From Chromatiales bacterium (GTDB taxonomy: Bacteria; Pseudomonadota; Gammaproteobacteria; Chromatiales; Chromatiaceae): DNA of 64,000 bases. This document shows positions 1 to 19,141 of this stretch, piece by piece. A program made the translations under genes and the position numbers. Under the pieces are notes generated by a model. It saw only the letters and a list, made by a program, of their open reading frames with translations, did not search any database and was not told the DNA's origin. The first letter of the stretch is position 1. Every line of letters starts with the position of its first letter. Location of the stretch: positions 1 through 64,000 of the forward strand of contig JAKSBX010000156.1 of assembly GCA_022360905.1 (NCBI GenBank). Direction: 5' to 3'.

Positions 1-1461
1 ATTCTCACCCGATCCACCCTTGGTGCTGCGACTCTTGATACCGCTCTGGGTCATATTCGCAGGAAGCCCATAGGGTGGCATCTGATCGGCGTTGTAGACC
101 CGCCCGGTGACGAGCGGCCGATCCGGGTCCCCTTCAAGGAACTCCACCACCACTTCCTGGCCAATCCGTGGAATATGCATGGCACCCCAGTTTTTACCGG
201 CCCACACCTGGGACACCCTTACCCAGCAGGAACTGTTCTCATCGCTGCCCCCATAACGGTCCCAGTGAAATTGAAGCTTCACGCGCCCATACTCATCCGT
301 GTAGATCTCCTCACCGGCCTTACCCACAACCACGGCGGTCTGTGGGCCCTGGACGATCGGTTTCGGCGTGCTACGGACACTGCGGTAGTTCTCTTTGCTC
401 ACGGAACATTTGAATTCGCAGGTAAAAATCGGCTCTTCAGCAATTTCCGGTACCGTTTCAAAGGCGTCGGAATGGAGCACACAGGTCGTGCCGGTGATCA
501 AATACTCTCTGTTCTGATCACCCCGGGGATGCTCAGTCAGGGTAAACAGCCCACCGCTGGCGATACCTCTTGCAATCGCCTCACCTTCAAGCACTTCATG
601 ACCACTCTGGAGCTCTTCAATCCGCTGTCGGGCGTAACTGTCTCCATCTCCCGACTCTTCGTATTCACCCGGATAGTCGAAGATCTCATATTCGGCATGG
701 GAGTGGCTTCGGGGTAGTGGCGCGGTGGCAAACAGATCCGATTTGGGTTTGGTGAAGTTGTAATCCGTGTGGGCGAAACTGCCCGGTTGTACTGACTTGG
801 TAAATTTCCAGGCGTGGATATAGTCCTTCCAGCGGGTACTTCCCTGCTCGCTTTGCGGCAGATAGGGAATCTCGGCGTAGGCTTCGAGCGGACTGTGCGA
901 GCTGTAACCGTCACACAACACCAGGGTATGTTTGCCATCGACATGGGCAATGTAATAATAGATGCCCTCCTGTTCCATCAGGCGACTGACGAAATTAAAA
1001 TCCGTTTCCCGATACTGGACGCAATACTCCCACTCCCGGTATGAGCCGCTCAGCTTGTCTTCAAAATCGCTGAAGCCATTATCCTGAAACACCTCTTTGA
1101 TAATATCCGGGACTTTTTTATTCTGGAAAATGCGGCAATCGGAAGTGCGGGTCAAAAACCACAGCCATGGACGCAGTGTGGCTCGATAGTGGGCGAAATA
1201 GGCAATATGGCCAATCTGGGTGAACTGGCTGACATAGCCATTGAAATACCGCTTTCCGCCGTCCACCAGATCCATCTGCACGGTCATCTGTTTACCCAAC
1301 AGATCATCGTGAGCAATCTCCTCATTGTCGCTCAGCAGATCTACAGTAAACTCAGACAATCGCCCCAACTCCTCTCTCGCCTCCATGCGCAGAATCAGAA
1401 GTTCATCTGGACCCAACGGGGTTTTTATCTGTAACTGCCGGTTACTCTGTGTAAACGCCAT
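1..1461 (-). CDS. vgrG: Type VI secretion tip protein VgrG/TssI (N-terminal part; truncated by left window edge)
   Basis: Minus-strand reading from CAT at 1459-1461 gives MAFTQSNRQLQIKTPLGPDELLILRMEAREELGRLSEFTVDLLS...GYVSQFTQIGHIAYFAHYRATLRPWLWFLTRTSDCRIFQNKKVPDIIKEVF, typical VgrG N-terminus; no stop before the window edge. Confidence 0.93.
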   Translation of the reverse strand, partial: MAFTQSNRQLQIKTPLGPDELLILRMEAREELGRLSEFTVDLLSDNEEIAHDDLLGKQMTVQMDLVDGGKRYFNGYVSQFTQIGHIAYFAHYRATLRPWLWFLTRTSDCRIFQNKKVPDIIKEVFQDNGFSDFEDKLSGSYREWEYCVQYRETDFNFVSRLMEQEGIYYYIAHVDGKHTLVLCDGYSSHSPLEAYAEIPYLPQSEQGSTRWKDYIHAWKFTKSVQPGSFAHTDYNFTKPKSDLFATAPLPRSHSHAEYEIFDYPGEYEESGDGDSYARQRIEELQSGHEVLEGEAIARGIASGGLFTLTEHPRGDQNREYLITGTTCVLHSDAFETVPEIAEEPIFTCEFKCSVSKENYRSVRSTPKPIVQGPQTAVVVGKAGEEIYTDEYGRVKLQFHWDRYGGSDENSSCWVRVSQVWAGKNWGAMHIPRIGQEVVVEFLEGDPDRPLVTGRVYNADQMPPYGLPANMTQSGIKSRSTKGGSGEN

Positions 1462-1877: not shown

Positions 1878-3263
1878 ATGGCACAACGATTGAATCTATC
1901 GGTTGAACTGGGAAAAAAGCGTCATAGTGGAGATGGCGGCAGCGCCGACAGTCAGCAACTCAAATTCATTCTCTTGGGTTGTTTTTCGGGCACCAGGAAT
2001 TCGTCTGATTCCCACGCCAATACTCACCAGGGCTTACGCCAGGTGGATCTCGACAACTTCGATGCTTTGCTCAGTGAAATACAACCTTCCCTGAAAATTC
2101 GCTTGAGTGACCAGGCTGAACCGCTTCAGCTCAGTTTTACCAGCCTGGATGACTTCCATCCGGACCAGCTCCATCAACAGCTGCCCCAACAGCAGAGTCC
2201 CTCTTCTGATGTGCGCAGAGAGCAGCAACCAGCCAACCCGCGACAGAGTACGTCAACCCGCGATCAGCAGGAGTCAGATCAACAGACTCTATCAAGACTA
2301 TTAGGTAAAGGAACCGTCACGACGCCATCAGCAAGCGGATCCCAAGCAAACCGTACATTGGTTGAATCGGTAGTTGGACGTCTGATAGATGGCTCACTCA
2401 AGCGAGAAGGATCAGAAGACACCAAGCAAGAAACCGATCATTCAGGACCACAAAGGAGTCTACTGAAACGTGTCATCCATCACCCCGAGTTTCAAGCCCT
2501 GGAGTCGAATTGGCGAGGCCTGGACTGGCTGGTTCGAAGTCTGGAATCGGATGAACTGAATACGGTTTTCATTTTTGATATGGCCAGTGACGAGTGGGAT
2601 CTCTTTTCTCAGAATGAATTGGATTTTCCAAAATCAGACTGCTATCGATCACTACTGGAACGTTTCAGCAACGATCATCCATCAGAACAGAAGTTTATTC
2701 TAATATGCGATAAATATTTTAATTCCTCGAGTGGAGATATTCGCCTATTGGAAAGTTTGTCACTACTGGGTAGATCCCTGAACGCCCAACTGATCGCAGC
2801 TAGCTCAGCAACACTTCTCTCGGAGTCGGATTCTGACCCCGATTCGATGAACCAATTGAAAGCCTTTCAACAAAGCGAGGCGGCAGCAAACGTCAGTCTG
2901 GTTCTGCCCCGCATCTTGATGCGAATGCCTTATGGCGAGCAATATGACCCTGTTGAATCCTTCGATTTCGAAGAACTGGACACTGAATGGTCAAACGATG
3001 AACTGCTTTGGGGCAATCCCGGTTATGCGTTGGCGATCCAATTGGCTGCGGATAATCAATCGGATCAGCAGCAGGATGCTGTCGCCTTGGCCGATTGCCC
3101 CTCCTTCGCCTATCGAAAAAACAGTGAAAGCCACCTGCAGCCCTGTACGGAAAGCCTGTTCACCGATCTGCAGTTGGAAACACTGGTTGAGCTTGGAATG
3201 GTCCCAATAGTCGGCAGCCGTCGCAGTAATGTGGTAAAGATACCTTGGTATCGAAGACTATAA
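1878..3263 (+). CDS. T6SS sheath-like composite protein (TssB-like N-terminal segment plus short TssC-like C-terminal segment)
   Basis: 461-aa ORF; VDLDNFDALLSEIQPSLKIRL and LQLSFTSLDDFHPDQL parallel TssB; HPEFQALESNWRGLDWLVRS and LPRILMRMPYGEQYDPVESFDFEE parallel TssC encoded at 5221-6717. Confidence 0.8.
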   Translation: MAQRLNLSVELGKKRHSGDGGSADSQQLKFILLGCFSGTRNSSDSHANTHQGLRQVDLDNFDALLSEIQPSLKIRLSDQAEPLQLSFTSLDDFHPDQLHQQLPQQQSPSSDVRREQQPANPRQSTSTRDQQESDQQTLSRLLGKGTVTTPSASGSQANRTLVESVVGRLIDGSLKREGSEDTKQETDHSGPQRSLLKRVIHHPEFQALESNWRGLDWLVRSLESDELNTVFIFDMASDEWDLFSQNELDFPKSDCYRSLLERFSNDHPSEQKFILICDKYFNSSSGDIRLLESLSLLGRSLNAQLIAASSATLLSESDSDPDSMNQLKAFQQSEAAANVSLVLPRILMRMPYGEQYDPVESFDFEELDTEWSNDELLWGNPGYALAIQLAADNQSDQQQDAVALADCPSFAYRKNSESHLQPCTESLFTDLQLETLVELGMVPIVGSRRSNVVKIPWYRRL

Positions 3264-3545: not shown

Positions 3546-4604
3546 TTGTTATGCAAACCTTTGGGGGATGCAGGTTTGACAGGCACACTCGACCTTGACC
3601 AACTTCTCAGCGCAGTATCTGAAGAAGAGCCTGCCGGTTCCGATTTAGAGTACGACCCCCTGTTTGGTGAGATGGAAAGAGCTGCCGAAGGTAAGGAAGA
3701 GCAGCAATTCGGCGATACCATCATACCGGCTGAAGACCCGGATTGGCGGGAGCTGAAGAAAAAGTCACTCGAAGTGGCAAGCAAGAGCAGAGATCTGCGG
3801 GCCGCCATTCACCTGACCCGAGCTTTGATTCATACTGACGGCTTTGATGGTCTGGCCGATGGTTTGGCTCTGATCAAAGGCTATCTGGATGGTTACTGGG
3901 AGTCGGTACATCCACAACTCGACCCGGATGACGATAACGATCCAACGCTGAGAATCAATACTCTGATCAATATCTGCGATCCCTTCGACTACCTGGCCGG
4001 CATCAATAAGATCCCGGTGGTCTCTTCCACCGTCATGGGTAAGTTCAGTTACCGGGATATTCAGCTCGCCAACGGTAACCTGCAAACCTCTGATGCAGAT
4101 TCACAGGAGCTTTCCCTCGACCAGATCGATGCGGCATTCCGGGAATCCAGCGACGAGGACAACCAACATATGCTGGACCAGATTACGGCTTCAGCAGAGA
4201 CTGTGGTGGGTATTGAGTCCCGCCTCAACGAGCTGGTCGGCGTTGACCAGGCACCAAATCTCAGCGCCCTTGTCGAGCTGCTGAAAGAGATTTCCAATGA
4301 AGTGGCACAACGCTGCGGGCTGGAAAGTGCCTCCGAAACAGCAGAAACGGCAGCCGACGGCTCCGTAGCGTCGCTACAGAACCAACCAGCGGCACCAGGC
4401 TCGATCAACAATCGCGATGACGTCATCAAGACGCTCGAACGCATTACTCAATATTACGAGAAAAATGAACCATCCAGTCCGATCCCACTGTTACTCGACC
4501 GGGCAAAGCGATTGGTGAAAATGGACTTTTACGAGATTGTCCAGGACCTCGCACCAGGTGGTTCTTCTCATTTCGATTTCCTGTGGAAACAGGAAGATAG
4601 ATAG
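3546..4604 (+). CDS. tssA: Type VI secretion protein TssA (ImpA N-terminal family)
   Basis: LDLDQLLSAVSEEEPAGSDLEYDPLFGEME plus C-terminal RDDVIKTLERITQYYEKNEPSSPIPLLLDRAKRLV; start is TTG, TTG at 3576 is an alternative start. Confidence 0.9.
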   Translation: MLCKPLGDAGLTGTLDLDQLLSAVSEEEPAGSDLEYDPLFGEMERAAEGKEEQQFGDTIIPAEDPDWRELKKKSLEVASKSRDLRAAIHLTRALIHTDGFDGLADGLALIKGYLDGYWESVHPQLDPDDDNDPTLRINTLINICDPFDYLAGINKIPVVSSTVMGKFSYRDIQLANGNLQTSDADSQELSLDQIDAAFRESSDEDNQHMLDQITASAETVVGIESRLNELVGVDQAPNLSALVELLKEISNEVAQRCGLESASETAETAADGSVASLQNQPAAPGSINNRDDVIKTLERITQYYEKNEPSSPIPLLLDRAKRLVKMDFYEIVQDLAPGGSSHFDFLWKQEDR

Positions 4605-4686: not shown

Positions 4687-5217
4687 GTGGCAAAAGAGAG
4701 CAGCCAGAAGTTCATAGCCCGAAACCGAGCCCCCAGGGTACAGATAGAGTATGACGTGGAACTCTATGGTGCTGAAAAAATGATTCAATTGCCCTTCATC
4801 ATGGGCGTTATGGCAGACCTCTCGGGAAAACCCGAAGAGGCACTACCCCCTGTCGCCGATCGCAAGATGTTGGAAATCGATGTGGATAACTTCGATGAAA
4901 GGCTCAAAGCCATGAAACCCCGTACCGCATTCAGGGTGCCCAACACGCTGACCGGTGAGGGCAACATCAGCGTCGACATTACCTTTGAAAGTATGGATGA
5001 CTTCTCACCCGCTGCGGTCGCCAAAAAGGTCGGCGCGCTGCGCCAACTGCTGGATGCACGTACCCAACTGGCCAATCTGCTGACCTATATGGATGGCAAG
5101 GCCGGTGCGGAAGAGCTGATTACCAAGGCCTTGAACGATCCAACCCTGCTTCAATCCCTTGCCTCTTCCCCCAACCCTGACGATGCATCATCTGAAGATT
5201 CAACCGGCGAGGAGTAA
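4687..5217 (+). CDS. tssB: T6SS contractile sheath small subunit TssB
   Basis: KFIARNRAPRVQIEYDVELYGAEKMIQLPFIMGVMADLSGKPEEALPPVADRKMLEIDVDNFDERLK. Confidence 0.97.
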   Translation: MAKESSQKFIARNRAPRVQIEYDVELYGAEKMIQLPFIMGVMADLSGKPEEALPPVADRKMLEIDVDNFDERLKAMKPRTAFRVPNTLTGEGNISVDITFESMDDFSPAAVAKKVGALRQLLDARTQLANLLTYMDGKAGAEELITKALNDPTLLQSLASSPNPDDASSEDSTGEE

Positions 5218-5220
5218 AAG

Positions 5221-6717
5221 ATGGCTGAAACAGATACCCAACAAACAGCGGGCGAAGCGACAGAAAGCGTAGCACCGGATGAATTTTCAGCGCTGCTGCA
5301 ACAGGAGTTCAAACCGAAGACCGAGCGCACCAAGGAAGCCGTTACCAGCGCGGTGCAAACCCTTGCCGAGCAGGTCCTGAAAGAGACCGGCACCATCTCG
5401 GATGATGCGGTTGAGACGATTGAGGGGATCATCGCTGAAATCGACAAAAAGCTCACCGAGCAGGTCAACCTGATCCTCCATCATGAGGATTTTCAGCAAC
5501 TCGAAGGCAGCTGGCGCGGACTGCACCATCTGGTCAACAACACCGAGACCGATGAGATGCTGAAGATCAGGGTCATGAACATCTCGAAAAAAGAGCTGGG
5601 CAAGAACCTGAAAAAATTCAAAGGTACCGCCTGGGATCAAAGCCCGATATTCAAAAAGGTCTACGAGGAAGAGTATGGCCAGTTCGGTGGTGAACCATAC
5701 GGCTGCCTGGTAGGTGACTACCATTTCGATCACTCGCCACCGGATGTCGAGCTGCTCAACGGCATGGCACAAATTGCCGCTTCCGCACATGCGCCGTTCA
5801 TCGCCGGGGCAGCACCTACCGTCATGCAGATGGATTCCTGGCAGGAGCTGTCAAACCCCAGGGACCTGACCAAAATATTCCAGACACCGGAGTTCGCATC
5901 CTGGCGTTCTCTCAGAGAGTCCGACGATTCCCGATATATCGGTCTGGCGATGCCGAGATTCCTCTCTCGCCTGCCCTATGGAGCGAAGACCGATCCTGTG
6001 GAAGAGTTCGATTTCGAAGAGGACACGGAAGGTGCGGATCACAACAAGTACACCTGGTCCAACTCGGCTTATGCCATGGCCGTTAATATCAATCGTGCCT
6101 TCAAACTGTATGGTTGGACAACAAGAATCCGCGGTGTGGAATCAGGCGGTTCCGTCGAAGGACTGCCTACTCACACCTTCCCCACCGATGACGGTGGTGT
6201 GGATATGAAATGCCCTACTGAGATCGCCATATCCGATCGACGTGAGGCCGAATTGGCAAAAAATGGCTTCATGCCGTTGTTGCACCGTAAAAATTCCGAC
6301 TTTGCCGCCTTTATCGGCGCGCAATCACTACAAAAACCTTCGGAATATGACGATCCTGACGCAACAGCCAATGCGAATTTAGCTGCCCGATTGCCCTATC
6401 TGTTCGCCAGTTGCCGCTTCGCACACTACTTGAAATGTATTGTGCGTGACAAGATAGGCTCATTCAAAGAGCGTGATGACATGGAAAAATGGCTAAACAA
6501 ATGGATTATGAACTATGTCGAACCGAACCCGGCGACAGCTTCAGAAGAAGACAAAGCACGTAAACCGCTCGCAGCGGCAGAAGTGGTTGTCGCTGAAGTT
6601 GAGGGGAATCCAGGATACTACACTTCAAAGTTTTTCCTGCGCCCCCACTATCAACTGGAAGGTTTGACAGTCTCGTTACGTCTGGTCTCTAAGCTGCCAT
6701 CTGAAAAAACAGCTTAG
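5221..6717 (+). CDS. tssC: T6SS contractile sheath large subunit TssC
   Basis: HEDFQQLEGSWRGLHHLVNNTETDEMLKIRVMNISKKEL; MPRFLSRLPYGAKTDPVEEFDFEE; C-terminal VEGNPGYYTSKFFLRPHYQLEGLTVSLRLVSKLP. Confidence 0.98.
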   Translation: MAETDTQQTAGEATESVAPDEFSALLQQEFKPKTERTKEAVTSAVQTLAEQVLKETGTISDDAVETIEGIIAEIDKKLTEQVNLILHHEDFQQLEGSWRGLHHLVNNTETDEMLKIRVMNISKKELGKNLKKFKGTAWDQSPIFKKVYEEEYGQFGGEPYGCLVGDYHFDHSPPDVELLNGMAQIAASAHAPFIAGAAPTVMQMDSWQELSNPRDLTKIFQTPEFASWRSLRESDDSRYIGLAMPRFLSRLPYGAKTDPVEEFDFEEDTEGADHNKYTWSNSAYAMAVNINRAFKLYGWTTRIRGVESGGSVEGLPTHTFPTDDGGVDMKCPTEIAISDRREAELAKNGFMPLLHRKNSDFAAFIGAQSLQKPSEYDDPDATANANLAARLPYLFASCRFAHYLKCIVRDKIGSFKERDDMEKWLNKWIMNYVEPNPATASEEDKARKPLAAAEVVVAEVEGNPGYYTSKFFLRPHYQLEGLTVSLRLVSKLPSEKTA

Positions 6718-6751: not shown

Positions 6752-7237
6752 ATGGCAGTTGATATGTTTATGAAGATCGATGGCATCGATGGCGAAAGTA
6801 CCGATGACCAACACAAAGGCTGGATTGAGTTGGTCAGTGTCAATCATGGCGTGACACAACCCACATCCGGAGCCAGCGGCACGGGTGGCCGTACTGGTGG
6901 ACGAGCCGACTTCGAACCCTTTACCGCAATGAAGGAGGTCGATAAAGGCACACCGGATCTGAATATAAAGTGCGCCAAGGGTGAGCACATTCCGAAGATT
7001 GAAGTCCATCTTTGTGAAGCCGCCGGGGACAAGCACATTTTCATGAAATACACCATGGAAAATGTAATCGTTCAGGCGGTCATGCCGAGCTGCAGTAAAG
7101 GTGACATCAAGCCTATTGAAACCGTAAGCTTCGCCTATGGCAAAATCAAATGGGAGTACACAGAACTGGGTCAAGACGGTAAACCAGGCGGTTCAACCGA
7201 CAGAACCTGGAATTTGGAAACCAACAAGCAGGATTGA
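6752..7237 (+). CDS. hcp: T6SS tube protein Hcp/TssD
   Basis: MAVDMFMKIDGIDGESTDDQHKGWIELVSVNHGVTQP...; typical 161-aa Hcp. Confidence 0.97.
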   Translation: MAVDMFMKIDGIDGESTDDQHKGWIELVSVNHGVTQPTSGASGTGGRTGGRADFEPFTAMKEVDKGTPDLNIKCAKGEHIPKIEVHLCEAAGDKHIFMKYTMENVIVQAVMPSCSKGDIKPIETVSFAYGKIKWEYTELGQDGKPGGSTDRTWNLETNKQD

Positions 7238-7298: not shown

Positions 7299-7459
7299 GA
7301 ATGCAGAAAGGTTATTCGTTGCACAGATCAGACAGACATAGGAGACGTTTAATTTCAGTAACATCGTGCTGATCCGCTCTACATTGATCTGCAGACAGCA
7401 GTAACTTTGTTCTAGAGATATTGCAGATTGCCTCAAAACACAGAGAAGACAAAAACACC

Positions 7460-8272
7460 ATGACGGGCGCAAAAGAACTATTACAACAAGGCCAACTAGA
7501 TCAGGCTTTGGAAACACTACAGCAGTCGATACGCAACGCACCTTCAGACACCAAGCTGCGAGTCTTCCTGTTTCAGCTGCTCTGCGTGATGGGCGCCTGG
7601 GAACGGGCACTGAGTCAGTTGCAGGTTGCTGGTGACATGGACTCACTCAATCTACCCATGGCCCAGACCTATCGTGAAGCCATTCGCTGTGAACTGTTCC
7701 GACAGGAAGTCTTTAGTGGTGACAAATCACCACTGATTTTCGGCGATCCCCCGGAATGGACAGCGTTTCTCGTGGAGGCACTGAAGCATTCCGGTAAAGG
7801 GGAATACAGCCAAGCTGAAAGCTTGCGCAACCAGGCGTTTGAACTGGCACCCACCACACCCGGCACAATCGACGGGCAGGCTTTCGAATGGATTGCCGAT
7901 GCGGACTCGCGTCTCGGCCCTATGATGGAAGCCATAGTCAACGGCCGCTACTATTGGATCCCCATGCAGCGCCTGAAAAAAGTAACGATGGAGGCACCAG
8001 AAGATCTGCGGGACATGGTCTGGACACCGGCCCAGCTGACCTTTGAAAATGAGGGTGAAGCCGTGGCGCTGATCCCAAGCCGTTATCCTGGTACCGAGCA
8101 TGCAACGGAGCCGGCACTCAAGCTTTCTCACAAAACAGAGTGGCAGACACCGGTCGAAGGTGTCTACCTTGGAGTTGGCCAACGGATGCTGGCCACCGAC
8201 CAGGATGATTACCCCTTACTCAATGTCAGGGAGATACAATTCCAATCCGCAACGGACAGCGAAACTGAATGA
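7460..8272 (+). CDS. tagJ: T6SS accessory protein TagJ (ImpE family)
   Basis: AKELLQQGQLDQALETLQQSIRNAPSDTKLRVFLFQLLCVMGAWERALSQL; ATG at 7460 (ORF track begins upstream at 7421). Confidence 0.9.
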   Translation: MTGAKELLQQGQLDQALETLQQSIRNAPSDTKLRVFLFQLLCVMGAWERALSQLQVAGDMDSLNLPMAQTYREAIRCELFRQEVFSGDKSPLIFGDPPEWTAFLVEALKHSGKGEYSQAESLRNQAFELAPTTPGTIDGQAFEWIADADSRLGPMMEAIVNGRYYWIPMQRLKKVTMEAPEDLRDMVWTPAQLTFENEGEAVALIPSRYPGTEHATEPALKLSHKTEWQTPVEGVYLGVGQRMLATDQDDYPLLNVREIQFQSATDSETE

Positions 8273-8298: not shown

Positions 8299-8811
8299 TT
8301 GAAGGCCAGTAACCAACAACAGCTGCAACCATCCCTGCTTGACCGGTTGATCGACGATGAACCCGGCAAGACGAAAGAGTCCCAGGATAAGCGGGTCATT
8401 TCCATGCGCCGTCTGCGTCAATCCGTTTTACGCGACCTGGCCTGGTTGATGAATACCACCAATCTGGAAACCACCGAGGATTTGGAGGCTTACCCGGAAG
8501 TCGGCCACTCGGTCCTCAACTATGGCTTGGCAGAGCTTTCCGGGCATCTGGTTTCCGGCCTGGATTTAAACCGATTGGAGAGGATGGTGCGCCAAGCAGT
8601 TCAGGATTTCGAGCCGCGCATTATGCCCAATTCAGTTAAAGTACGTTCGGTCCGGGATGCCAGTAAGGAGAGCCACAATCAACTGATGTTCGAGATCGAA
8701 GGACAACTCTGGGCGGTACCCACTCCGACACACCTGTTGATCAAAACCCAGATAGACCTCGAAGAGGGTGGTGTAACCCTTGCTGACGCGTTTAGCACGG
8801 GCATGGAGTAA
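8299..8811 (+). CDS. tssE: T6SS baseplate subunit TssE (gp25-like)
   Basis: QPSLLDRLIDDEPGK...SMRRLRQSVLRDLAWLMNTTNLE..YPEVGHSVLNYGLAELSG; TTG start. Confidence 0.93.
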   Translation: MKASNQQQLQPSLLDRLIDDEPGKTKESQDKRVISMRRLRQSVLRDLAWLMNTTNLETTEDLEAYPEVGHSVLNYGLAELSGHLVSGLDLNRLERMVRQAVQDFEPRIMPNSVKVRSVRDASKESHNQLMFEIEGQLWAVPTPTHLLIKTQIDLEEGGVTLADAFSTGME

Positions 8812-8813
8812 TC

Positions 8814-10682
8814 ATGGATCCTCGTCTACTCAAATACTACAACCAGGAGTTGCAGTTCATGCGTGAGATGGGCGCAGAGTTCGCCCAGGCCTACCCGAAA
8901 ATAGCCAGTCGTCTCTCGCTGGATGAATTTGAGTGTGCCGATCCCTATGTTGAACGCCTGTTGGAAGGCTTCAGTTTTCTGACCGCCAGGATACAGCTGA
9001 AACTCGATGAAGAGTTTCCCCGTTTTACTCAACACCTGATGGAGCGGGTTTTCCCTCACTATCTCTGCCCCACGCCATCGATGATGGTGGTGCAATTTCA
9101 AGTCGATATGTTGGAGCCCTCATTGTGTGAGGGTTTTCTGCTACCCAGACATTCCACCATGCGCAGCCGAGTCGGCAAAGGCAGCCATACCGCTTGTATT
9201 TACCGTACAGCCCAGGATGTCACCCTTTGGCCGATCGAGATCCAGAGTGTCGACTATTTGGCCTCACCGGCTGCCATAGCGTTGGCCGGTATCGGTAAAC
9301 AGAGTGGCGCCAGAGCGGCAATCCGCCTCAGACTCAAAACCTCCGGTGATATCCCTTTCAATCACCTTAATCTGCAGCGCCTGCCAATCTATTTCACGGG
9401 TGGTGACAGCGGCATGCGTGCGTTTGAAGCCGTTGCCGGCCATACCATGAAGATTGTCGGCCGGGCAGTGGATTCGGATGAATACAGAACCACCACTTCA
9501 TCGCCAGTCCGAATCATGGGCTTCGAGGAACAGGAATCCCTGCTGCCCCATAGCCTGCGTTCTTTTCAGGGTTACCGCTTTTTGTCTGAGTACTTCACCC
9601 TGCCGGAACGTTTTATGTTCGTGGAACTGAATGATCTGCAGTCTGTGATAAAAGGGTGTGACCAACAGCAACTCGAGTTACTGCTACTACTGGACGAGAG
9701 CGATCCGGAGCTGGAGAGCAGTATCAGTGATGCCAATTTTTTACTCAACTGTACACCGGCCATTAACCTGTTTCCCAAGCGGGCGGACAGAATTCATCTC
9801 AACGACAAGGCAGCTGAATACCACATCCTGCCCGACCGTACCCGCCCTATGGACTACGAGGTCTATGAGATCGATAACGTGGTCGGATTCGGCACCAACA
9901 CGGAACAGCGTCAGACATTCCAGGCCTTCTACGCCAGCAATGATTTCATCGCCTCGGATCAACCCCGTGCCTACTACACCAACCGACGGGAACCCAGACT
10001 GCTCTCATCGAAACAGCAGCGCGAAGGGGCCCGATCCGGTTATATCGGCAGTGAAATCTACATATCACTCGTCGACGCGGATGAAGCACCCTTTCACAGT
10101 GATCTCAGACAGCTTGCCGTCAGCACCTTGTGCACAAACCGGGATCTGCCAATGCATATTCCACTGGGCCAGAGCGGCTCTCCATTCACCCTGGAGAGCA
10201 GTACGCCGGTGAACCATATTCGTTGCATCGGTTCACCGACCAGACCGAAACCGACAACACCACCGGGATCGATCAGCTGGCGACTGATCAACCACCTGTC
10301 GCTGAACTATCTCTCCCTCGCGAGTGAGGACCGGGAACAGAGTACGGCGGCACTGAAAGATTTTCTGCAGCTCTATGCCGACACCAGTGATCCTTCGATG
10401 CGCAAGCAGATCGAGGGGGTGATCTCAATCGACTCCAAGCCGGTGAACCGCCGCCTGCCGAGCCCTGGTCCGATCGCCTTCGGTCACGGCCTTGAGATAA
10501 CCCTGACCCTCGATGATCAGGCATTCGAGGGGAGTGGCGCCTTCCTGTTCGGCGCTGTGATGGAGCAGTTTTTCCGAAAATACACCGCAATCAATTCATT
10601 TACCGAAACCGTAGTCGTCACACAACAGCGGGGAGAGATCAAGCGATGGCCAGTAAGGCTGGGTCTGAGAAAAACCCTTTGA
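8814..10682 (+). CDS. tssF: T6SS baseplate subunit TssF
   Basis: MDPRLLKYYNQELQFMREMGAEFAQAYPKIASRLSLDEFECADPYVERLLEGFSFLTARIQLKLDEEFPRFTQ. Confidence 0.97.
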   Translation: MDPRLLKYYNQELQFMREMGAEFAQAYPKIASRLSLDEFECADPYVERLLEGFSFLTARIQLKLDEEFPRFTQHLMERVFPHYLCPTPSMMVVQFQVDMLEPSLCEGFLLPRHSTMRSRVGKGSHTACIYRTAQDVTLWPIEIQSVDYLASPAAIALAGIGKQSGARAAIRLRLKTSGDIPFNHLNLQRLPIYFTGGDSGMRAFEAVAGHTMKIVGRAVDSDEYRTTTSSPVRIMGFEEQESLLPHSLRSFQGYRFLSEYFTLPERFMFVELNDLQSVIKGCDQQQLELLLLLDESDPELESSISDANFLLNCTPAINLFPKRADRIHLNDKAAEYHILPDRTRPMDYEVYEIDNVVGFGTNTEQRQTFQAFYASNDFIASDQPRAYYTNRREPRLLSSKQQREGARSGYIGSEIYISLVDADEAPFHSDLRQLAVSTLCTNRDLPMHIPLGQSGSPFTLESSTPVNHIRCIGSPTRPKPTTPPGSISWRLINHLSLNYLSLASEDREQSTAALKDFLQLYADTSDPSMRKQIEGVISIDSKPVNRRLPSPGPIAFGHGLEITLTLDDQAFEGSGAFLFGAVMEQFFRKYTAINSFTETVVVTQQRGEIKRWPVRLGLRKTL

Positions 10683-11686
10683 GTCTGTTTGACAGACTGC
10701 AACAGGCGCCCTATCGGTTCGATTTCTATCAAGCCATGCGACGCCTGGAGTGCGCCTATCCGGATGAGCCCCGTTTGGCGCAATCCAGACATGCCAAACG
10801 GGATAAGATTCGCCTCGGCCAGGATCCAACCATGGCCTTTCAACCCTCCACCCTGAACTCGTTTCGCCAGGGTAAAGGGAGTCTGCCACCCCGTTTGGGG
10901 GTCTACTTCTTCGGTCTGTTCGGCCCCAACGGTCCATTGCCTCTGCATTTGACAGAGTTTATCCATGACCGTATGCACAATGAGCATGATCCGACCCAGG
11001 TCGCCTTCCTCGATCATTTTCATCACCGTCTGCTCAGCCTGTTCTATCGGGCCTGGGCAAACAGCCAACCCACCGTCAGTTTCGATCGGCCAGAGAGTGA
11101 CCAGTTCGGCAACTATCTGGGTTCGATGGTCGGTATCAGCTCACCCCATCTCAGAGATCGGGATGCGATGCCGGATCTCGCCAAACTGCACTATGCCGGT
11201 CGCTTCGCCAGCCATCCCCGCAATGCGGAGGGTTTGGAGGCAGTGCTGGCGGATTTCTTCCAACTCCCGGTCCGCATCGATGAGTTCATCGGTGCCTGGA
11301 TCGACCTGCCGGATAACAGCCGCTGTCGCTTGGGTGAATCCCTGGAGATCAGCATGCTTGGCACGAATATCATCCTGGGAGAACGGGTCTGGCAGGCACA
11401 ACAGAAATTCCGCATTGTGCTGGGCGCCTTGACCTTCAAGGATTACCAGCGAATGTTACCCGGCGGTGAGAGTCTGAAACGGCTGATCGCAGTGGTAAAA
11501 AACTATATTGGCGATGAGCAGGATTGGGAGCTGAACCTGATCCTCGAACAGCCAGAGGTCCCACAGCTCTGTCTCAACGGCGAAAGCCGTCTCGGCTGGA
11601 CCAGCTGGCTAGCACAACAACCACTGGGGCGGGATGGTGACGACCTGTTCCTACAACCCCTTGAACTAAGAGGTCTTCCCTCATGA
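10646..11686 (+). CDS. tssG: T6SS baseplate subunit TssG
   Basis: LFDRLQQAPYRFDFYQAMRRLECAYPDEPRLAQSRHAKRDKIRLGQDPTMAFQPSTL...YFFGLFGPNGPLPLHLTEF. Confidence 0.97.
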   Translation: MASKAGSEKNPLSLFDRLQQAPYRFDFYQAMRRLECAYPDEPRLAQSRHAKRDKIRLGQDPTMAFQPSTLNSFRQGKGSLPPRLGVYFFGLFGPNGPLPLHLTEFIHDRMHNEHDPTQVAFLDHFHHRLLSLFYRAWANSQPTVSFDRPESDQFGNYLGSMVGISSPHLRDRDAMPDLAKLHYAGRFASHPRNAEGLEAVLADFFQLPVRIDEFIGAWIDLPDNSRCRLGESLEISMLGTNIILGERVWQAQQKFRIVLGALTFKDYQRMLPGGESLKRLIAVVKNYIGDEQDWELNLILEQPEVPQLCLNGESRLGWTSWLAQQPLGRDGDDLFLQPLELRGLPS

Positions 11687-14415
11687 GCGAGATCAATCGT
11701 GCCGCCCTGTTCGGCAAGCTGAACAGCCTGGGCTATAAGGCCATCGAGAGTGCGACCGTATTCTGCAAGATGCGTGGTAACCCCTATGTGGAGCTGGTTC
11801 ACTGGATCCACCAGATCCTGCAACTACAGGATTCCGATCTGCACCGCATCATCAAGCAGTTCAACCTGGAACCCTCCCATCTGGCGAAAGACATTACCGA
11901 GACCCTCGACAGCCTGCCCCGAGGATCCACCTCGATCTCCGATCTCTCCTCCCATGTGGAAGAGGCTACGGAACGGGGCTGGGTGTACGGCACCTTGATG
12001 TTCGGAGACTCCCAGGTGCGAACCGGCTACCTGATGATCGGCATCCTGAAAACCAACAGTCTGCACAATGCGCTGCTGAGGATCTCCGATCAGTTTAAAA
12101 AGCTCAACATCGAAACCCTCACCGACCGCTTTACCGAGGTAGTCGAAGGATCCCCCGAAGAGGCGATGCGCTCCAACGACGGTTTTCAGGTGGGAGGTGG
12201 TGCCGCACCTGGTGAGGCCAGTGATGCGATGGCACCGGCCCAGATGGGTAAGCAACAGGCGCTGCAGCAGTTCTCGGTGGATCTCACTGAACGGGCCAGA
12301 AAGGGTGAAATCGACCCGATTGTGGGCCGGGATGATGAGATACGTCAGATTGTCGATATCCTGATGCGCCGACGGCAGAACAATCCGATACTGACCGGTG
12401 AGGCCGGAGTGGGTAAAACCGCCGTGGTCGAGGGCTTCGCTCTACAGATCGCCAGCGGTGACGTCCCTCCTCCGCTGAAAGAGGTCAGCCTGCGAGTGCT
12501 TGATGTGGGGCTGCTGCAGGCGGGCGCCAGCATGAAAGGTGAGTTTGAGAACCGTCTGAAACAGGTGATCGAAGAGGTTCAATCCTCGGAAAAGCCGATC
12601 ATTCTGTTTATCGATGAGGCCCACACCCTGATCGGCGCCGGTGGCAGTGCCGGTACCGGCGATGCCGCCAATCTGTTAAAACCCGCCCTCGCCCGAGGCA
12701 CCTTGAGAACCGTAGCCGCCACCACCTGGGCTGAATATAAAAAATATATCGAGAAGGACCCCGCCCTGACCCGTAGATTTCAGGTCGTACAGGTTGATGA
12801 GCCCGATGAGGATCGGGCGATCCGCATGATGCGCGGTATGGCTTCGACACTTGAGGATCACCACCAGGTACAGATCCTCGATGAAGCACTGGATGCTTCA
12901 GTGCGACTCTCCCACCGCTACATTCCGGCGCGCCAACTGCCGGACAAATCGGTCAGTTTGCTCGATACCACCTGTGCCCGGGTGGCGATCAGTCAGGCCG
13001 CGGTTCCCGCCGAGGTGGATGACAGTCGTCGCCGCATCGAGGCGTTGGAGACCGAGTTGCAGATCATCGGCCGGGAAAAGGCCATCGGACTCGACACCGA
13101 AGAACGTGAACAGGAGACGCAGGAAAAACTCGACCAGGAGCGACAGCGTCTCGAACAGCTGAGCGCCCGCTGGGAGGAAGAGAAAGGGCTGGTCGAAGAG
13201 CTGCTCAGTGTGCAGCAACAACTCAAAGGGGAACCGGTTGAGCGTGATGAAGCAGCCGACAGCGGTGATGACCAAGCCGCTTCATCGGAAGAAACCGCTG
13301 AGACGCCAGAGGCGCCGCCCCCCTCCAAAGAGGCTTTGCTGGAGCGTCTCAATGAGGTGAAGAGCAAACTCAATGAGTTACAGGGTGAAAGTCCGTTGAT
13401 CCTGCCCAGTGTGGATGCCCAGGCCGTCGCCTCGGTGGTCGGCGACTGGACCGGTATTCCGGTGGGAAGAATGGTGAAGAATGAGATCGAAACCATCCTC
13501 AACCTGAGTGACACCCTGGCCAAACGGGTGATCGGCCAGGATCACGCGCTGGAGATGATTTCACGCCGGGTGCAGACCTCCAGAGCCAATCTGGACAATC
13601 CCAATAAACCGATCGGCGTCTTCATGCTGTGCGGCCCCTCCGGCGTGGGCAAGACGGAAACCGGCCTGACGCTGGCAGAGAGCCTGTATGGCGGCGAGCA
13701 GAATGTAATCACCATCAACATGAGTGAGTTCCAGGAAGCGCATACCGTATCGACCCTGAAAGGCGCACCGCCAGGCTATGTGGGTTATGGCGAGGGCGGT
13801 ATCCTCACCGAAGCGGTCAGACGCAAACCCTACAGCGTGGTGCTGCTGGATGAGGTGGAGAAGGCCCACCCGGATGTACACGAGATCTTCTTCCAGGTAT
13901 TCGATAAAGGCTGGATGGAAGATGGTGAGGGTCGGCATATCGATTTTAAGAATACGCTGATTCTGCTGACCTCCAACACCGGCACGGAGATGATCGACAA
14001 CCTGTGTAAGGACCCGGAACTGATGCCGGAGCCTGATGCGATCGCTACCGCTTTGCGGGATCCCCTGCAGAAGGTCTTCCCGGCCGCACTGCTGGGGCGG
14101 CTGGTGGTCATCCCTTACTATCCGTTGAGCGATGAAGTACTGGCCAAGGTGGTACGCCTGCAACTGGGCCGAATCGAATCCCGGATCCTTGAAAACCATG
14201 GCATACCGCTTGAGATCGATGATGGGGTGATCAGTTTGATCATCAGCCGTTGCACTGAAGTGGAGAGCGGCGCGAGAATGGTGGATGCAATTCTCACCAA
14301 TACAATGCTACCTGAAATCAGCCGACATATTCTGATCGAAAAGATGGAGGGCCGTTCAATTGGCAATATCCGCATCGGTGTGGAGAATGATGAATTCAGC
14401 TATAACTTTTCCTAG
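11683..14415 (+). CDS. clpV: T6SS AAA+ ATPase TssH/ClpV
   Basis: Two Walker A motifs (GEAGVGKT, GPSGVGKT); N-terminal INRAALFGKLNSLGYKAIESATVFCKMRGNPYVELVHWIHQIL. Confidence 0.98.
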   Translation: MSEINRAALFGKLNSLGYKAIESATVFCKMRGNPYVELVHWIHQILQLQDSDLHRIIKQFNLEPSHLAKDITETLDSLPRGSTSISDLSSHVEEATERGWVYGTLMFGDSQVRTGYLMIGILKTNSLHNALLRISDQFKKLNIETLTDRFTEVVEGSPEEAMRSNDGFQVGGGAAPGEASDAMAPAQMGKQQALQQFSVDLTERARKGEIDPIVGRDDEIRQIVDILMRRRQNNPILTGEAGVGKTAVVEGFALQIASGDVPPPLKEVSLRVLDVGLLQAGASMKGEFENRLKQVIEEVQSSEKPIILFIDEAHTLIGAGGSAGTGDAANLLKPALARGTLRTVAATTWAEYKKYIEKDPALTRRFQVVQVDEPDEDRAIRMMRGMASTLEDHHQVQILDEALDASVRLSHRYIPARQLPDKSVSLLDTTCARVAISQAAVPAEVDDSRRRIEALETELQIIGREKAIGLDTEEREQETQEKLDQERQRLEQLSARWEEEKGLVEELLSVQQQLKGEPVERDEAADSGDDQAASSEETAETPEAPPPSKEALLERLNEVKSKLNELQGESPLILPSVDAQAVASVVGDWTGIPVGRMVKNEIETILNLSDTLAKRVIGQDHALEMISRRVQTSRANLDNPNKPIGVFMLCGPSGVGKTETGLTLAESLYGGEQNVITINMSEFQEAHTVSTLKGAPPGYVGYGEGGILTEAVRRKPYSVVLLDEVEKAHPDVHEIFFQVFDKGWMEDGEGRHIDFKNTLILLTSNTGTEMIDNLCKDPELMPEPDAIATALRDPLQKVFPAALLGRLVVIPYYPLSDEVLAKVVRLQLGRIESRILENHGIPLEIDDGVISLIISRCTEVESGARMVDAILTNTMLPEISRHILIEKMEGRSIGNIRIGVENDEFSYNFS

Positions 14416-14450: not shown

Positions 14451-15998
14451 ATGTACTCTGACAGCAACAGTGCAACCATTACCTTGACGGTGAGCCTCAA
14501 AGCGGGCTCAGCGCCTGCACAACCCATGTCGGCAACCTTTGACCAACAGGGTGGCTCGATCGGTCGCCGGGAGGAGAACGATTGGGTGCTGCCTGATCCC
14601 GAGCGCTTCATCTCCGGGCGCCATGCACTGATCTTCTACAGTGAAAATGCCTTTCACCTGACAGATACCAGTTCCAACGGGGTTTTCATCAATCATTCCG
14701 CCTCTGCCCTGGGTAAGGACAATGTCATCAAACTGGAGGATGGCGACACCATTGGGATCGGTGACTATGAGATCACGGTATCCCTACCCAAGGCAGAGAC
14801 CCTGGCAACGGAGGATTTTGACAATCTGGCTGACCCTTTTGCACAGATGTCTGAGCAATTGGCCGGTGAACCTGAAATCGCGGAAACGCCGCTTGCGGAT
14901 GCACCTGCCGATCTGGACCAGCCTGCCGAGGAACCAGTCTATACCCTCGATGAGCCGGACCCCTCCGAACTGGTGGTCGAACAGTCAGCCGATGAGCTCT
15001 CCCCCGCTCCGCTATCACAAACGGATCATACTTCTGACCTGAACGCCTATTTCAATCAACCGACACCGATTCCGGAAGATTGGGATCTGGATGAATCAGC
15101 GGCTGATGCCATACCGGCAGATGAGCCGATAACCTCACCCGAAATCTTGCCGCCACTGGATGATCAACCCGCATCCCAGGCCCCGTTTCCCGATTCCCAA
15201 CCGGTTGCCAAAGAGGAACCGGTAGCTCCGGCGCTTGCCCAGGAATCGATACCGCGTCCAGGCCTGAAGCCGAAACAGCCAGCGCCACAGAGCAGCCCAC
15301 CACAGAGCGCACCACAAAGCAGCCCGCCACCGGCAACTCAACCGACTGCTGCCACAGCCGGTATAACAAGTGATGATACAGGTTTGCGCCAGGCGCTCGC
15401 TGAGGGATTGGGTGTCCCGGAGTCCTACCTGGAGGGGGTATCCCTGGCTGAACTGCTGGGTAATCTGGGCAGCGCGATGCGAGCGAATGTGGAAGGCACC
15501 ATGTCAATTCTGCGCGCCCGAGCTCAGATGAAGGGTGAGTTTCGTATGTCGCAAACCATGATACAGCCGGTGGAGAACAACCCACTCAAGTTCTCCATCA
15601 ATACCGAAGAGGCGTTGCGACATCTGGTCAACCCCAGCCAGAAGAGTGGCTATCTTCCACCACTGAATGCCATTGAAGAGGCCCATGAAGACATCGAAGC
15701 CCACATGTTGGCTGTGATGGTCGGTATGCAGGCCGCCCTGCAAGTGGTGTTACAGCGCTTCAAACCGGAGATCCTGGAAAAGCGGCTTGGTCAATCCGCG
15801 TTGCTGGAAAAGCTGCCCCTCTATCGTCATGCAAAAACCTGGGATCTGTTTACCGAGCTCTACAGCGAAATTGCGGTGGAGGCGGAAGATGACTTTCACC
15901 AGCTGTTCGGTCGCACTTTTTCCCAGGCCTATGAAGAGCAGATTCGTCGCCTGGAAGCTCTGAAGCACACGGACCCCAAATTAGATAAAAGGTTTTAA
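14451..15998 (+). CDS. tagH: T6SS-associated FHA domain protein TagH/Fha
   Basis: FHA signatures GGSIGRREENDWVLPDPERFISGRHALIFYSENAFHLTDTSSNGVFIN; C-terminal conserved TagH domain. Confidence 0.93.
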   Translation: MYSDSNSATITLTVSLKAGSAPAQPMSATFDQQGGSIGRREENDWVLPDPERFISGRHALIFYSENAFHLTDTSSNGVFINHSASALGKDNVIKLEDGDTIGIGDYEITVSLPKAETLATEDFDNLADPFAQMSEQLAGEPEIAETPLADAPADLDQPAEEPVYTLDEPDPSELVVEQSADELSPAPLSQTDHTSDLNAYFNQPTPIPEDWDLDESAADAIPADEPITSPEILPPLDDQPASQAPFPDSQPVAKEEPVAPALAQESIPRPGLKPKQPAPQSSPPQSAPQSSPPPATQPTAATAGITSDDTGLRQALAEGLGVPESYLEGVSLAELLGNLGSAMRANVEGTMSILRARAQMKGEFRMSQTMIQPVENNPLKFSINTEEALRHLVNPSQKSGYLPPLNAIEEAHEDIEAHMLAVMVGMQAALQVVLQRFKPEILEKRLGQSALLEKLPLYRHAKTWDLFTELYSEIAVEAEDDFHQLFGRTFSQAYEEQIRRLEALKHTDPKLDKRF

Positions 15999-16005
15999 GA
16001 AAGAG

Positions 16006-16458
16006 ATGATCAAAAAACTTTTACTTGTTATCGGACTACTGACAATTTTTGTTGCATCAGGTTGTTCCAGTGTTTCCAGTGTCAAGGCCTCTCTGAATGC
16101 CGATAAAGGGGTCAACCCGGATATCAACGGCAGACCCTCCCCGATCGTTGCAAGAATCTACGAACTGAAGTCGTTGAGTGTTTTCAACAATGCGGACTTC
16201 TTCAATCTTTTCGAGCAGGATGTCGCCTTGTTGGGTGACGAACTGTTGATGCGTGATGAACTTCACTTTCAGCCTGGGGAGAGCAAATTGCTTGAGCGTG
16301 AATTGCAACCTGACACCAGATACCTTGGCGTCATTGGTGCCTACCGGGATATCGAAAACGCCACATGGCGCCGTACCATCGAGATCGATGTGAACGATGA
16401 AACAGCCTTTGTGATAGAGTTCGGTAAAAGCGGCATCAACATCCTGAAAAACAAATAA
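16006..16458 (+). CDS. tssJ: T6SS outer membrane lipoprotein TssJ
   Basis: Lipobox VASGCSS; GRPSPIVARIYELKSLSVFNNADFFNLFEQDVALLGDELL. Confidence 0.95.
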   Translation: MIKKLLLVIGLLTIFVASGCSSVSSVKASLNADKGVNPDINGRPSPIVARIYELKSLSVFNNADFFNLFEQDVALLGDELLMRDELHFQPGESKLLERELQPDTRYLGVIGAYRDIENATWRRTIEIDVNDETAFVIEFGKSGINILKNK

Positions 16459-16467
16459 GAGAAGCCC

Positions 16468-17802
16468 ATGTCTTGGATGTCTAGGATCGTTTGGTCGGAG
16501 GGGATGTTCCTCAGACCTCACCACTTTCAACAGCAGGAGCGGTTTTTAGAGCACCGCATCGAAACCCGATGCGCTGATCTTACCCCCTTCAGTTGGGGCT
16601 TCACCCATTTAAAAATCGATCGCCAGGCCCTGGCGCTCGGTCGTCTGGCGATAGAATCCTGTCGCGGTGTACTGCCGGATGGCACCACCTTCGATATCCC
16701 TGGACACGACAATCCCCCGCCACCTCTGGAGATCCCTGCAGAGCATAAAGGCGCCATCATCTACCTGGCACTACCCCTCTCAAGGCCAGGCACAGCCCAG
16801 GTCAGGTTCACCGACCAGGAAGCGGGCCTGGAACGCTACCTGGTGGATGAGATCGACATCAAGGATGGCATTGCCGGATCTTCCAACAGCTCCACCCTAC
16901 AGGTTGCCAAACCGACCATGCGACTGCTGATCGGAGACGCCGAACTGGAGGAGTTTGCCCATCTTGCCGTGGCCAAAATTGTCGAGCGTCGATCTGACGA
17001 TATGCTGGTGTTGGATGAGGATTTCATTCCTCCCTGTCTTGACTGCCAGGTATCCCCCAGACTTGCCGGTTACCTCAAAGAGATCGAAGGCCTGCTTCAT
17101 CACCGTGCCGATGCCATTGCCTCCAGACTGGTGGATGGGGGTAAAGGGATTGCGGAAGTAGCCGACTTTCTGATGCTGCAGGTCGTGAATCGCTACGAGC
17201 CGCTCTATACCCACTTTTGCAATCGGGTACCACTGCACCCGGTGGCCTTCTATGAAGCTGCCCTGGAACTGGCCGGTGAATTGGCAACCTTCACCAGCAG
17301 CAATAAGCGTCCGCCAACCTTCCCGCTCTATCAGCATCAGACTCTGCATGAGACCTTTCTGCCGGTCATCCGTGAGCTGCGACGATCTCTGAGCATGGTG
17401 CTGGAACAGAAGGCGGTTTCCATACCCCTGGAAGAGCGCAAGTATGGCATCCGGGTTGCCACCGTATCGGACCGCTCCCTGTTGAGCGATGCGGTATTCG
17501 TACTGGCGGTCAACGCAAGTATGACGGCGGATCTGCTACAGCGACGCTTTCCCTCTCAAACCAAGATTGGCCCGGTGGAAAAAATCCGCGATCTGGTCAA
17601 TCTGCAACTGCCCGGTATCGGGCTGCGCATTCTCTCCGTAGCCCCACGACAAATTCCCTACAACGCAGGTTTCAGTTATTTCGAGCTGGACAAGAATAAC
17701 GACTATTGGAACCTGCTTGAAACCTCAGGCGGATGTGCCATACATATAGGAGGTGAATTTCCGGGCCTGGAACTTGAACTTTGGGCGATAAAAGGTAATT
17801 GA
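16468..17802 (+). CDS. tssK: T6SS baseplate subunit TssK
   Basis: IVWSEGMFLRPHHFQQQERFLEHRIETRCADLTPFSWGFTHL. Confidence 0.98.
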   Translation: MSWMSRIVWSEGMFLRPHHFQQQERFLEHRIETRCADLTPFSWGFTHLKIDRQALALGRLAIESCRGVLPDGTTFDIPGHDNPPPPLEIPAEHKGAIIYLALPLSRPGTAQVRFTDQEAGLERYLVDEIDIKDGIAGSSNSSTLQVAKPTMRLLIGDAELEEFAHLAVAKIVERRSDDMLVLDEDFIPPCLDCQVSPRLAGYLKEIEGLLHHRADAIASRLVDGGKGIAEVADFLMLQVVNRYEPLYTHFCNRVPLHPVAFYEAALELAGELATFTSSNKRPPTFPLYQHQTLHETFLPVIRELRRSLSMVLEQKAVSIPLEERKYGIRVATVSDRSLLSDAVFVLAVNASMTADLLQRRFPSQTKIGPVEKIRDLVNLQLPGIGLRILSVAPRQIPYNAGFSYFELDKNNDYWNLLETSGGCAIHIGGEFPGLELELWAIKGN

Positions 17803-19127
17803 CCATGGATCACGACGACCCATTTGGCATGAAGCCCAACGAATCCGGCGATCGCACTGTCATCCGGCCAAGACCGGGTGGTAAGGGCCCTGCTACTCCC
17901 CCACCCCAAGCGGCACCGACCAGTCAGCCGCCCCCACAGCGTCCTCTGGGCCCAGCCCCGAGCCTGCCGATGCGTCATGGGGCGAATAAGCTTGAGGTCG
18001 CCGCCTCCTCGCTTCTATCGATGATGGGGCGACTGCGTGACACCCCTTCCCACTCCGATCCGGTCTCTTTGAAAAACTCCATTATCGATAAGGTCCGGGC
18101 CTTTGAAATGAAAGCTCAGGATCTGGGTGTGGAACAGGAGACCACCTTCTGGGCCCGCTATGTACTCTGTACGGTAACCGATGAGCTGGTCCTCACCACA
18201 CCTTGGGGCAATCAGAGCATCTGGCGCGATCAAAGCCTGTTGGTCACTCTGCATAAAGAGGCTTGGGGTGGTGAGAAGTTCTTTCAACTGCTGCAAAAAC
18301 TTCTGCAGAACCCTGCCAAGAATCTTGAGCTGCTGGAACTGATGTATGTCTGTCTCTCATTCGGCTTCGAAGGGCGCTATCGTCCTTTACCGGATGGCTA
18401 TGCACAACTGCAAACCCTCAAAGACAACCTGTTCCGCACGCTTCGCAATCACCGGGATGAGTATGAACGGGATCTCTCCGGACACTGGCAGGGAGAGCCG
18501 CTGAAACAGAATGCCCTGGTTCAGTATGTTCCGCTTTGGGTGGTGATGGCGATATCCGGTGTGGTGCTGATGTTGATGTTCTCCGGATTCAGTCTCAGCC
18601 TGAATGTCAAATCCGATCCGGTGCACGCCGAACTACACAACATTGCCCGCAATGTACAAACGGTGGTTGAACGTACCCCGCCGCCACCGCCCAAGCCGGA
18701 ACTTTCGCTCAGAGTGCTGCTCGCCAATGAGATTACTCAAGGCCTGGTCAGCGTTGCGGAGAATCATCTGGAGGGTACCGTCAGAATTGCCGGGGACGGC
18801 CTGTTCGCTTCCGGTAAAGTGGCGGTCAACAGTCAATTCCTGCCACTACTGAATCGTATCGCCGCGGCAATGGACAAACTCGAGGGACAGATTGTGGTGG
18901 TCGGTCATACTGACAACATTCCCATACGCAGTCTTCGTTACCCCTCCAACTGGCACCTCTCGAGGGCACGTGCTGAATCCGTGGCCAAACTGCTGGCACT
19001 GGATTTAAGCCAACCCGCAAGAATTCAGAGTGAAGGGCGCGGCTCGGCAGAGCCCCTGGCATCCAATGACACAAAAGAGGGACGTGCACGTAACAGACGT
19101 GTGGAGATCACTCTTGTAAAACAATAG
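17799..19127 (+). CDS. tssL: T6SS inner-membrane protein TssL with C-terminal OmpA-like peptidoglycan-binding domain
   Basis: DRTVIRPRPGG N-terminus, TssL/DotU core, TM VPLWVVMAISGVVLMLMFSGFSLSL, then VVGHTDNIPIRSLRYPSNWHLSRARAESVAKLL OmpA motif. Confidence 0.97.
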   Translation: MTMDHDDPFGMKPNESGDRTVIRPRPGGKGPATPPPQAAPTSQPPPQRPLGPAPSLPMRHGANKLEVAASSLLSMMGRLRDTPSHSDPVSLKNSIIDKVRAFEMKAQDLGVEQETTFWARYVLCTVTDELVLTTPWGNQSIWRDQSLLVTLHKEAWGGEKFFQLLQKLLQNPAKNLELLELMYVCLSFGFEGRYRPLPDGYAQLQTLKDNLFRTLRNHRDEYERDLSGHWQGEPLKQNALVQYVPLWVVMAISGVVLMLMFSGFSLSLNVKSDPVHAELHNIARNVQTVVERTPPPPPKPELSLRVLLANEITQGLVSVAENHLEGTVRIAGDGLFASGKVAVNSQFLPLLNRIAAAMDKLEGQIVVVGHTDNIPIRSLRYPSNWHLSRARAESVAKLLALDLSQPARIQSEGRGSAEPLASNDTKEGRARNRRVEITLVKQ

Positions 19128-19141
19128 GTATTGCGTACACC

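Follow-up and report, generated by a model that had tools for sequence, protein, structure and literature searches.

The T6SS sheath is made of the subunits TssB (VipA) and TssC (VipB); in the solved structure its outer layer is a three-helix bundle, and its middle layer packs two TssB strands with five TssC strands (PMC5807055). Strands β11 and β12 of TssC take up β13 from a TssC of the same protofilament and β1 from a TssB of the next one (PMC5807055). These handshake strands connect disc to disc and the bottom disc to TssE (PMC5807055, PMC5924787), the C-terminal strand of TssC in the bottom disc being thought to plug into a similar sheet of TssE (PMC5924787). The N-terminal segment of TssC holds the ClpV-binding LLDEIM in V. 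cholerae VipB and EFASLL in P. aeruginosa HsiC1 (PMC4239648), and in E. coli the binding of TssB to TssC requires the C-terminal α-helix of TssB (PMC3840085).

The composite TssB-TssC gene described here resembles several known components and differs from each. First, both of its domains are homologous to the sheath subunits and its product is predicted to fold as one protomer, but it is a single polypeptide without the handshake domain, evolves fast, and coexists with the canonical pair. Second, the TssC40/TssC41 (ImpD/ImpC) tandem (PMC3702570) also adds another TssC-like protein to a T6SS cluster, but these proteins are full length and separate from TssB, whereas the composite has a TssB part and no TssC C-terminus. 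Third, the sheath initiator TssE (phage gp25) is likewise an incomplete relative of the sheath proteins and no bulk subunit; it consists of a handshake-like fold only, and the composite is the converse, everything but the handshake. Finally, the nearest functional parallels are TagB1 and TagJ (PMC7896307), encoded as accessory genes in a short-TssA T6SS with tagB1 also first in its cluster, although TagB1 is a 30 kDa protein with no reported sheath homology and TagJ has its own gene in the window. No published description of the composite was found in the open-licence full-text literature, where absence is not proof, and it appears to be an undescribed family of sheath paralogues.

The composite gene and its T6SS cluster

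The window (the whole 64,000-nucleotide stretch of DNA that was analysed) belongs, by the names of its closest relatives, to Candidatus Thiodiazotropha, sulphur-oxidising symbionts of lucinid clams. It contains a complete T6SS cluster, running from the composite gene through a PP2C phosphatase gene:

1..1461, minus strand: vgrG, 3′ part cut by the window edge, divergent from the composite (PF05954, PF04717)
1878..3263, plus strand: composite TssB-TssC-N gene, 461 aa (ORF; PF05591 and PF05943, without PF18945; conserved in the genus)
3546..4604, plus strand: tssA, short form, 352 aa (TIGR03363 above cut-off; ImpA_N)
4687..5217, plus strand: canonical tssB, intact (TIGR03358, PF05591)
5221..6717, plus strand: canonical tssC, intact, with handshake domain and N-terminal motif EFSALL of the HsiC1 class (TIGR03355, PF05943, PF18945)
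6752..7237, plus strand: hcp (PF05638)
7421..8272, plus strand: tagJ (ImpE) (PF07024, 1.2e-47)
8299..8811, plus strand: tssE, gp25-like (PF04965)
8814..10682, plus strand: tssF (PF05947)
10646..11686, plus strand: tssG (PF06996)
11683..14415, plus strand: clpV (AAA/ClpB domains)
14451..24248, plus strand: rest of the cluster, with fha, tssJ, tssK, tssL, tssM, tagF and the PP2C phosphatase gene (Pfam)

The groove residues of ClpV (R6 and the ISD aspartate), as read from its sequence, place it in the P. aeruginosa ClpV1 class as defined in PMC4239648. By these residues, the TssC motif EFSALL and the presence of tagJ, the window T6SS is assignable to the P. aeruginosa H1 class (PMC4239648). The first-pass annotation had the composite heading the T6SS operon. 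It does occupy the first position, but only positionally: vgrG is divergent upstream, and a 282-bp gap separates the composite from tssA, so that the two are at most candidates for co-transcription. A search upstream of the composite for an RNA element or promoter gave nothing above chance. Between the composite and tssA (window 3322-3397) lie two imperfect 21-bp direct repeats (GTAGTATCAA...), 55 bp apart.

There are several defining features of the composite itself. First, positions 1878-3263 form one unbroken ORF of 461 aa with an ATG start. Second, Pfam matches above the gathering scores identify T6SS_VipA (PF05591, E 4.1e-9) in residues 28-104 and VipB (PF05943, E 2.4e-34) in residues 195-451. 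Third, VipB_2 (PF18945), which Pfam describes as a tail-sheath gpW/gp25-like domain and which is the "handshake" domain of TssC, has no Pfam match in the window composite at E ≤ 10, whereas the window canonical TssC carries it at E 2.7e-44; nor does Pfam find a GPW_gp25 domain in the composite, one being present in the window tssE. Fourth, the end of the protein aligns at about residue 370 of the 498-aa canonical window TssC. The composite is a covalent TssB-TssC fusion, cut exactly before the gp25-like handshake domain of TssC. Its parts are as follows:

1878..1916, plus strand: residues 1-13, MAQRLNLSVELGK, conserved N-terminal arm, located where TssB has its β1 strand (relatives' M-x-G-R-x-x-F pattern)
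1956..2189, plus strand: residues 27-104, TssB core including the DDFHPDxL signature (PF05591, 4.1e-9; profile match to solved TssB chains)
2190..2267, plus strand: residues 105-130, Q/S-rich disordered linker (pLDDT < 50 over 108-130; alignment)
2271..2306, plus strand: residues 132-143, ESDQQTLSRLLG, segment corresponding to the TssC N-terminal motif (aligned by profile with the N-termini of TssC; helix predicted over 134-141)
2460..3230, plus strand: residues 195-451, TssC N-terminal (VipB) domain (PF05943, 2.4e-34; Foldseek)
3231..3263, plus strand: residues 452-461 and stop, conserved truncation point with the handshake domain missing (0 of 74 relatives with PF18945; post-LPYG length)

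These results bear out much of the first-pass annotation, which had proposed a composite TssB/TssC-like ORF: the two Pfam domains lie in a single frame, and the motif pairs that it had matched by eye are true alignments to the window TssB (BLASTP 5e-6) and TssC (BLASTP 4e-23). The stop that it placed before the C-terminal part of TssC and the canonical tssB (4687-5217) and tssC (5221-6717) that it saw beside the composite, both intact, are likewise real. It had allowed for the lack of a TssB-like fold in residues 1-110; homology to TssB is clear by profile over residues 28-104, and no such lack was encountered. The Q/S-rich linker that it described is present, but is not all filler: inside it, at the position of the TssC N-terminal segment, is the short helix TLSRLLG.

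The composite falls below the cut-offs of both NCBIfam equivalogs, with 107.1 bits against 271.5 for TssC (TIGR03355) and 34.2 bits against 97.25 for TssB (TIGR03358), and a profile built from its relatives matches solved chains of both subunits, TssC at E 3e-84 and TssB at E 3e-13. Routine annotation probably files such proteins under TssC, so that sheath counts and TssC phylogenies may be contaminated.

Several other origins were considered. A chance or low-complexity match is ruled out by the E-values and profiles, a frameshifted or read-through tssB-tssC pair by the single ORF in nearly all relatives together with the presence of the canonical pair, and a phage-derived sheath by the lack of a PHROG match to the composite. 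In plasmid records no place covered 80% of the query, and the annotations listed were those of canonical sheath genes.

Distribution and evolution of the family

A pattern-based scan of one genome per species yielded 307 related stretches, of which the best 80 were retrieved; owing to the patterns used (DFHPDxL and LExxWRxxDW), members in which these motifs are retained are over-represented. The best 80 of 307 span gamma-, beta- and alphaproteobacteria, deltaproteobacterial (Desulfobacterota-type) lineages, Planctomycetota, Acidobacteria, Nitrospira-related bacteria and others, and nearly all of those retrieved are full-length single ORFs. Culturable carriers include strains of Methylobacter marinus, Rugamonas and Pseudoduganella. 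Among 74 aligned full-length relatives VipB is found in all 74, VipA in 73 and VipB_2 (PF18945) in none. The composites have 108-127 residues after LPYG versus 240-248 in canonical TssC, which amounts to one constant truncation. In one locus (L070:7935-9461) the composite lies in two adjacent ORFs (160 and 348 aa), through sequencing error or decay.

When the region shared with TssC was used for a tree, 90 composites split wholly from 61 canonical TssCs (support 1.0, branch 0.87); among the latter are TssCs of the composite-bearing genomes and second TssCs of the tandem type. In this tree the composites are a single ancient clade apart from canonical TssC. The sampled tandem copies fall with canonical TssC, which rules out the composite as a tandem TssC of the ImpC/ImpD type; the comparison with the Rhizobium/Agrobacterium ImpC/ImpD pair (TssC41/TssC40) offered by the first-pass annotation thus fails, those second TssCs being full length and grouping with the canonical proteins. 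Its other concern, that the gene might be a degenerate tssC paralogue without conservation, is answered by conservation that spans phyla. A recent local duplication is ruled out by the single deep clade. A mirror-tree test of the composite against canonical TssC over the whole set showed no sign of co-evolution: rho was 0.08, a value equalled or exceeded in 384 of 2000 permutations.

The composite is carried in addition to the canonical genes. An even sample of 281 genomes from the class contained 53 with a TssC-like match, and 16 of these 53 have a composite, as judged from the spans of the matches. Among 34 composite-bearing genomes from several phyla, canonical TssC is present in 33 and TssK in 32; the one genome with neither is a metagenome assembly, in which the genes may simply be missing. 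The composite is a conserved T6SS accessory, encoded on top of a normal sheath.

Within the genus, 22 genomes were surveyed with the composite profile and with TssK (PF05936) on the same set. All 18 genomes with a T6SS of the window type have the composite; three genomes have neither TssK nor composite, and in the remaining one TssK clearly belongs to another type and the composite is absent. Pairwise dN/dS for the composite is 0.14-0.27, indicating purifying selection, and together with the conservation this rules out a pseudogene. The values for tssB and tssC are 0.00-0.04 and those for vgrG, tssA, hcp, tagJ, tssE and tssF are at most 0.18, such that the composite evolves at about ten times the rate of tssB and tssC and is the fastest-evolving of the genes compared. 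This fast evolution is unlike that of a subunit packed in a helical lattice. Besides its first copy, one Thiodiazotropha genome has another composite, truncated by the contig and sharing about 30% identity with the window protein (L025, G021:C50).

Predicted structure and a proposed role

The AlphaFold2 model of the full-length composite has a good core (mean pLDDT 78.8, pTM 0.77), and the best Foldseek matches to it are all TssC/VipB chains (E 1.4e-15 to 6.7e-10), no other solved structures being matched with confidence. Residues 50-104 of the TssB half have pLDDT of about 90-97 in the full-length model and below 80 when that half is modelled alone (mean 57.6, pTM 0.41). Because confident pLDDT is reached only with the TssC half present, these models suggest that the TssB half needs the TssC half to pack on while folding, as TssB does on TssC in the heterodimer. 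Residues 1-13 have low pLDDT in the monomer model, as expected for a donated strand, and by analogy with the solved sheath (PMC5807055) we infer that they may be TssB β1, the strand given to a sheath neighbor. The composite keeps the N-terminal arm of TssB, the middle layer and the N-terminal helices of TssC, and has nothing of the handshake domain. At the linker position most relatives retain the TssB α-helix (FxxLRxxRxRLxxPxxFAxAAAEL), and the window protein has the disordered Q/S-rich stretch instead (alignment, pLDDT); covalent fusion might relax the need for this helix in TssB-TssC binding.

These features suggest how the protein could act. It would fold like one sheath protomer, its TssB half packed on its TssC half. 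With the N-terminal strand of TssB, the middle layer and the N-terminal segment of TssC all retained, it could touch sheath, baseplate or ClpV partners. It would present no sheet into which the next disc could insert its strand, and would itself have no C-terminal strand for the disc below or for TssE. Such a protein might dock but not pass the chain on, and would stop or gate the addition of discs. We tentatively propose, with rather less than even confidence, that the composite is a low-copy, sub-stoichiometric dead-end protomer with this effect. Its part as a terminator is deduced from the missing handshake domain, which also makes a bulk sheath subunit unlikely, in keeping with the original suggestion of a fused, tail-less protomer, for which cap, starter ring and assembly regulator had been put forward as candidate roles. 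The baseplate/VgrG end, where the first discs would be held back or timed, is slightly favored over the distal TssA end because vgrG is the commonest neighbor. The dead-end protomer is favored by the uniform domain content and truncation, the single clade, the tie to T6SS-bearing genomes, purifying selection at a rate unlike that of a lattice subunit, the predicted packing of the two halves and the vgrG neighborhood. Against it stand the loci with neither vgrG nor a core gene nearby and the negative mirror-tree test; moreover, the TssB strand is the only sheath arm kept, and docking could be weak or elsewhere. It is possible, if doubtful, that this fused protomer without the inter-disc linker is a widespread, ancient and undescribed component that naturally ends the chain in sheath polymerisation or gates its start, and thus the converse of the TssE/gp25 initiator. 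As a sheath protomer from which precisely the disc-linking domain has been cut away, the protein is in any case a ready-made probe of how sheath growth starts, stops and is limited in length, particularly where TssA is short.

Alternative roles and gene neighborhoods

A second explanation starts from the gene neighborhoods. In all Thiodiazotropha loci with enough flank vgrG is divergent from the composite. Outside the genus, 38 loci have enough flank to be counted: vgrG lies within 4 kb of the composite in 23, mostly divergent upstream (18 genes); 6 have vgrG and no core T6SS gene within 8 kb, and 13 have neither vgrG nor a core gene nearby. Further neighbors are DUF4123, PAAR and DUF2169 genes and clpV, and in Competibacter and its relatives the composite faces a vgrG-DUF4123 island apart from the core cluster. 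The composite could on these grounds be a VgrG-linked assembly factor acting outside the sheath, its sheath-like fold now serving as an adaptor or checkpoint that ties the initiation of a sheath to a given VgrG/effector load. The frequent and often divergent pairing with vgrG, including in DUF4123/PAAR/DUF2169 islands without a core gene, agrees with this, as do the fast evolution of the composite and a correlation between composite and VgrG distances (rho 0.26; 10 of 1000 permutations). However, this correlation is weak and may reflect shared ancestry, several lineages have clpV or no T6SS genes as neighbors, and we regard the explanation as unlikely.

Two further arrangements were seen in these neighborhoods. 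Divergent pairing with vgrG-DUF4123 islands that have no core T6SS genes occurs in Competibacter-type and other gammaproteobacterial loci (L049, L055, L061, L066, L081 and L098), and a GNAT acetyltransferase gene directly adjoins the composite in deltaproteobacterial and Nitrospira-type loci (L085:3919-4386, L079 and L101).

In a third explanation the composite is a baseplate stabiliser like TagB1/TagJ, which would work with short TssA, gather at the baseplate and lend support to the sheath as it extends. TssA is of the short form in this cluster, the composite is the first gene as tagB1 is in P. putida K1 (PMC7896307), and the composite adjoins tssA both here and in relatives of the genus. 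Nonetheless, tssA is not adjacent in most other lineages, TagJ, proposed for that role in this T6SS class, is already encoded (PF07024), and the composite, at about 51 kDa and with sheath homology, differs in these respects from TagB1, a 30-kDa protein that failed to bind TssB1 (PMC7896307). This role is quite unlikely.

A fourth explanation arises from the retained TssC N-terminal segment, which the composite might present to ClpV, modulating sheath disassembly or recycling assembly-incompetent subunits. The type of this segment goes with the class of canonical TssC that the genome encodes: where canonical TssC is of the LLDQII type (LLDxI) the composites usually have LLDQVL or similar, and where it is of the FxxLL type they usually have (x)RLLG or DFASLLG, with exceptions in L112 and the Bryobacteraceae copies L050 and L105. 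The match fits co-inheritance of the composite with the T6SS class, but it was noticed post hoc, maps mostly to one main clade and counts as few independent events. Moreover, although clpV neighbors the composite in several lineages, the TssC N-terminus is dispensable for ClpV1 binding in the P. aeruginosa class (PMC4239648), and a ClpV-side regulator is improbable.

A decaying, functionless tssB-tssC duplicate is largely refuted and scarcely credible, since the ORFs are intact with one constant truncation point across phyla and dN/dS is clearly below 1, even though the composite is shorter than TssC, evolves fastest of the cluster genes compared, and is split in the L070 copy.

Two composites, L063:7992-9824 and L115 (the G209 composite), have C-terminal extensions with two or three (E/D)LDALLA(S/E)L repeats, which recall the FxxLL N-terminal motif of TssC.
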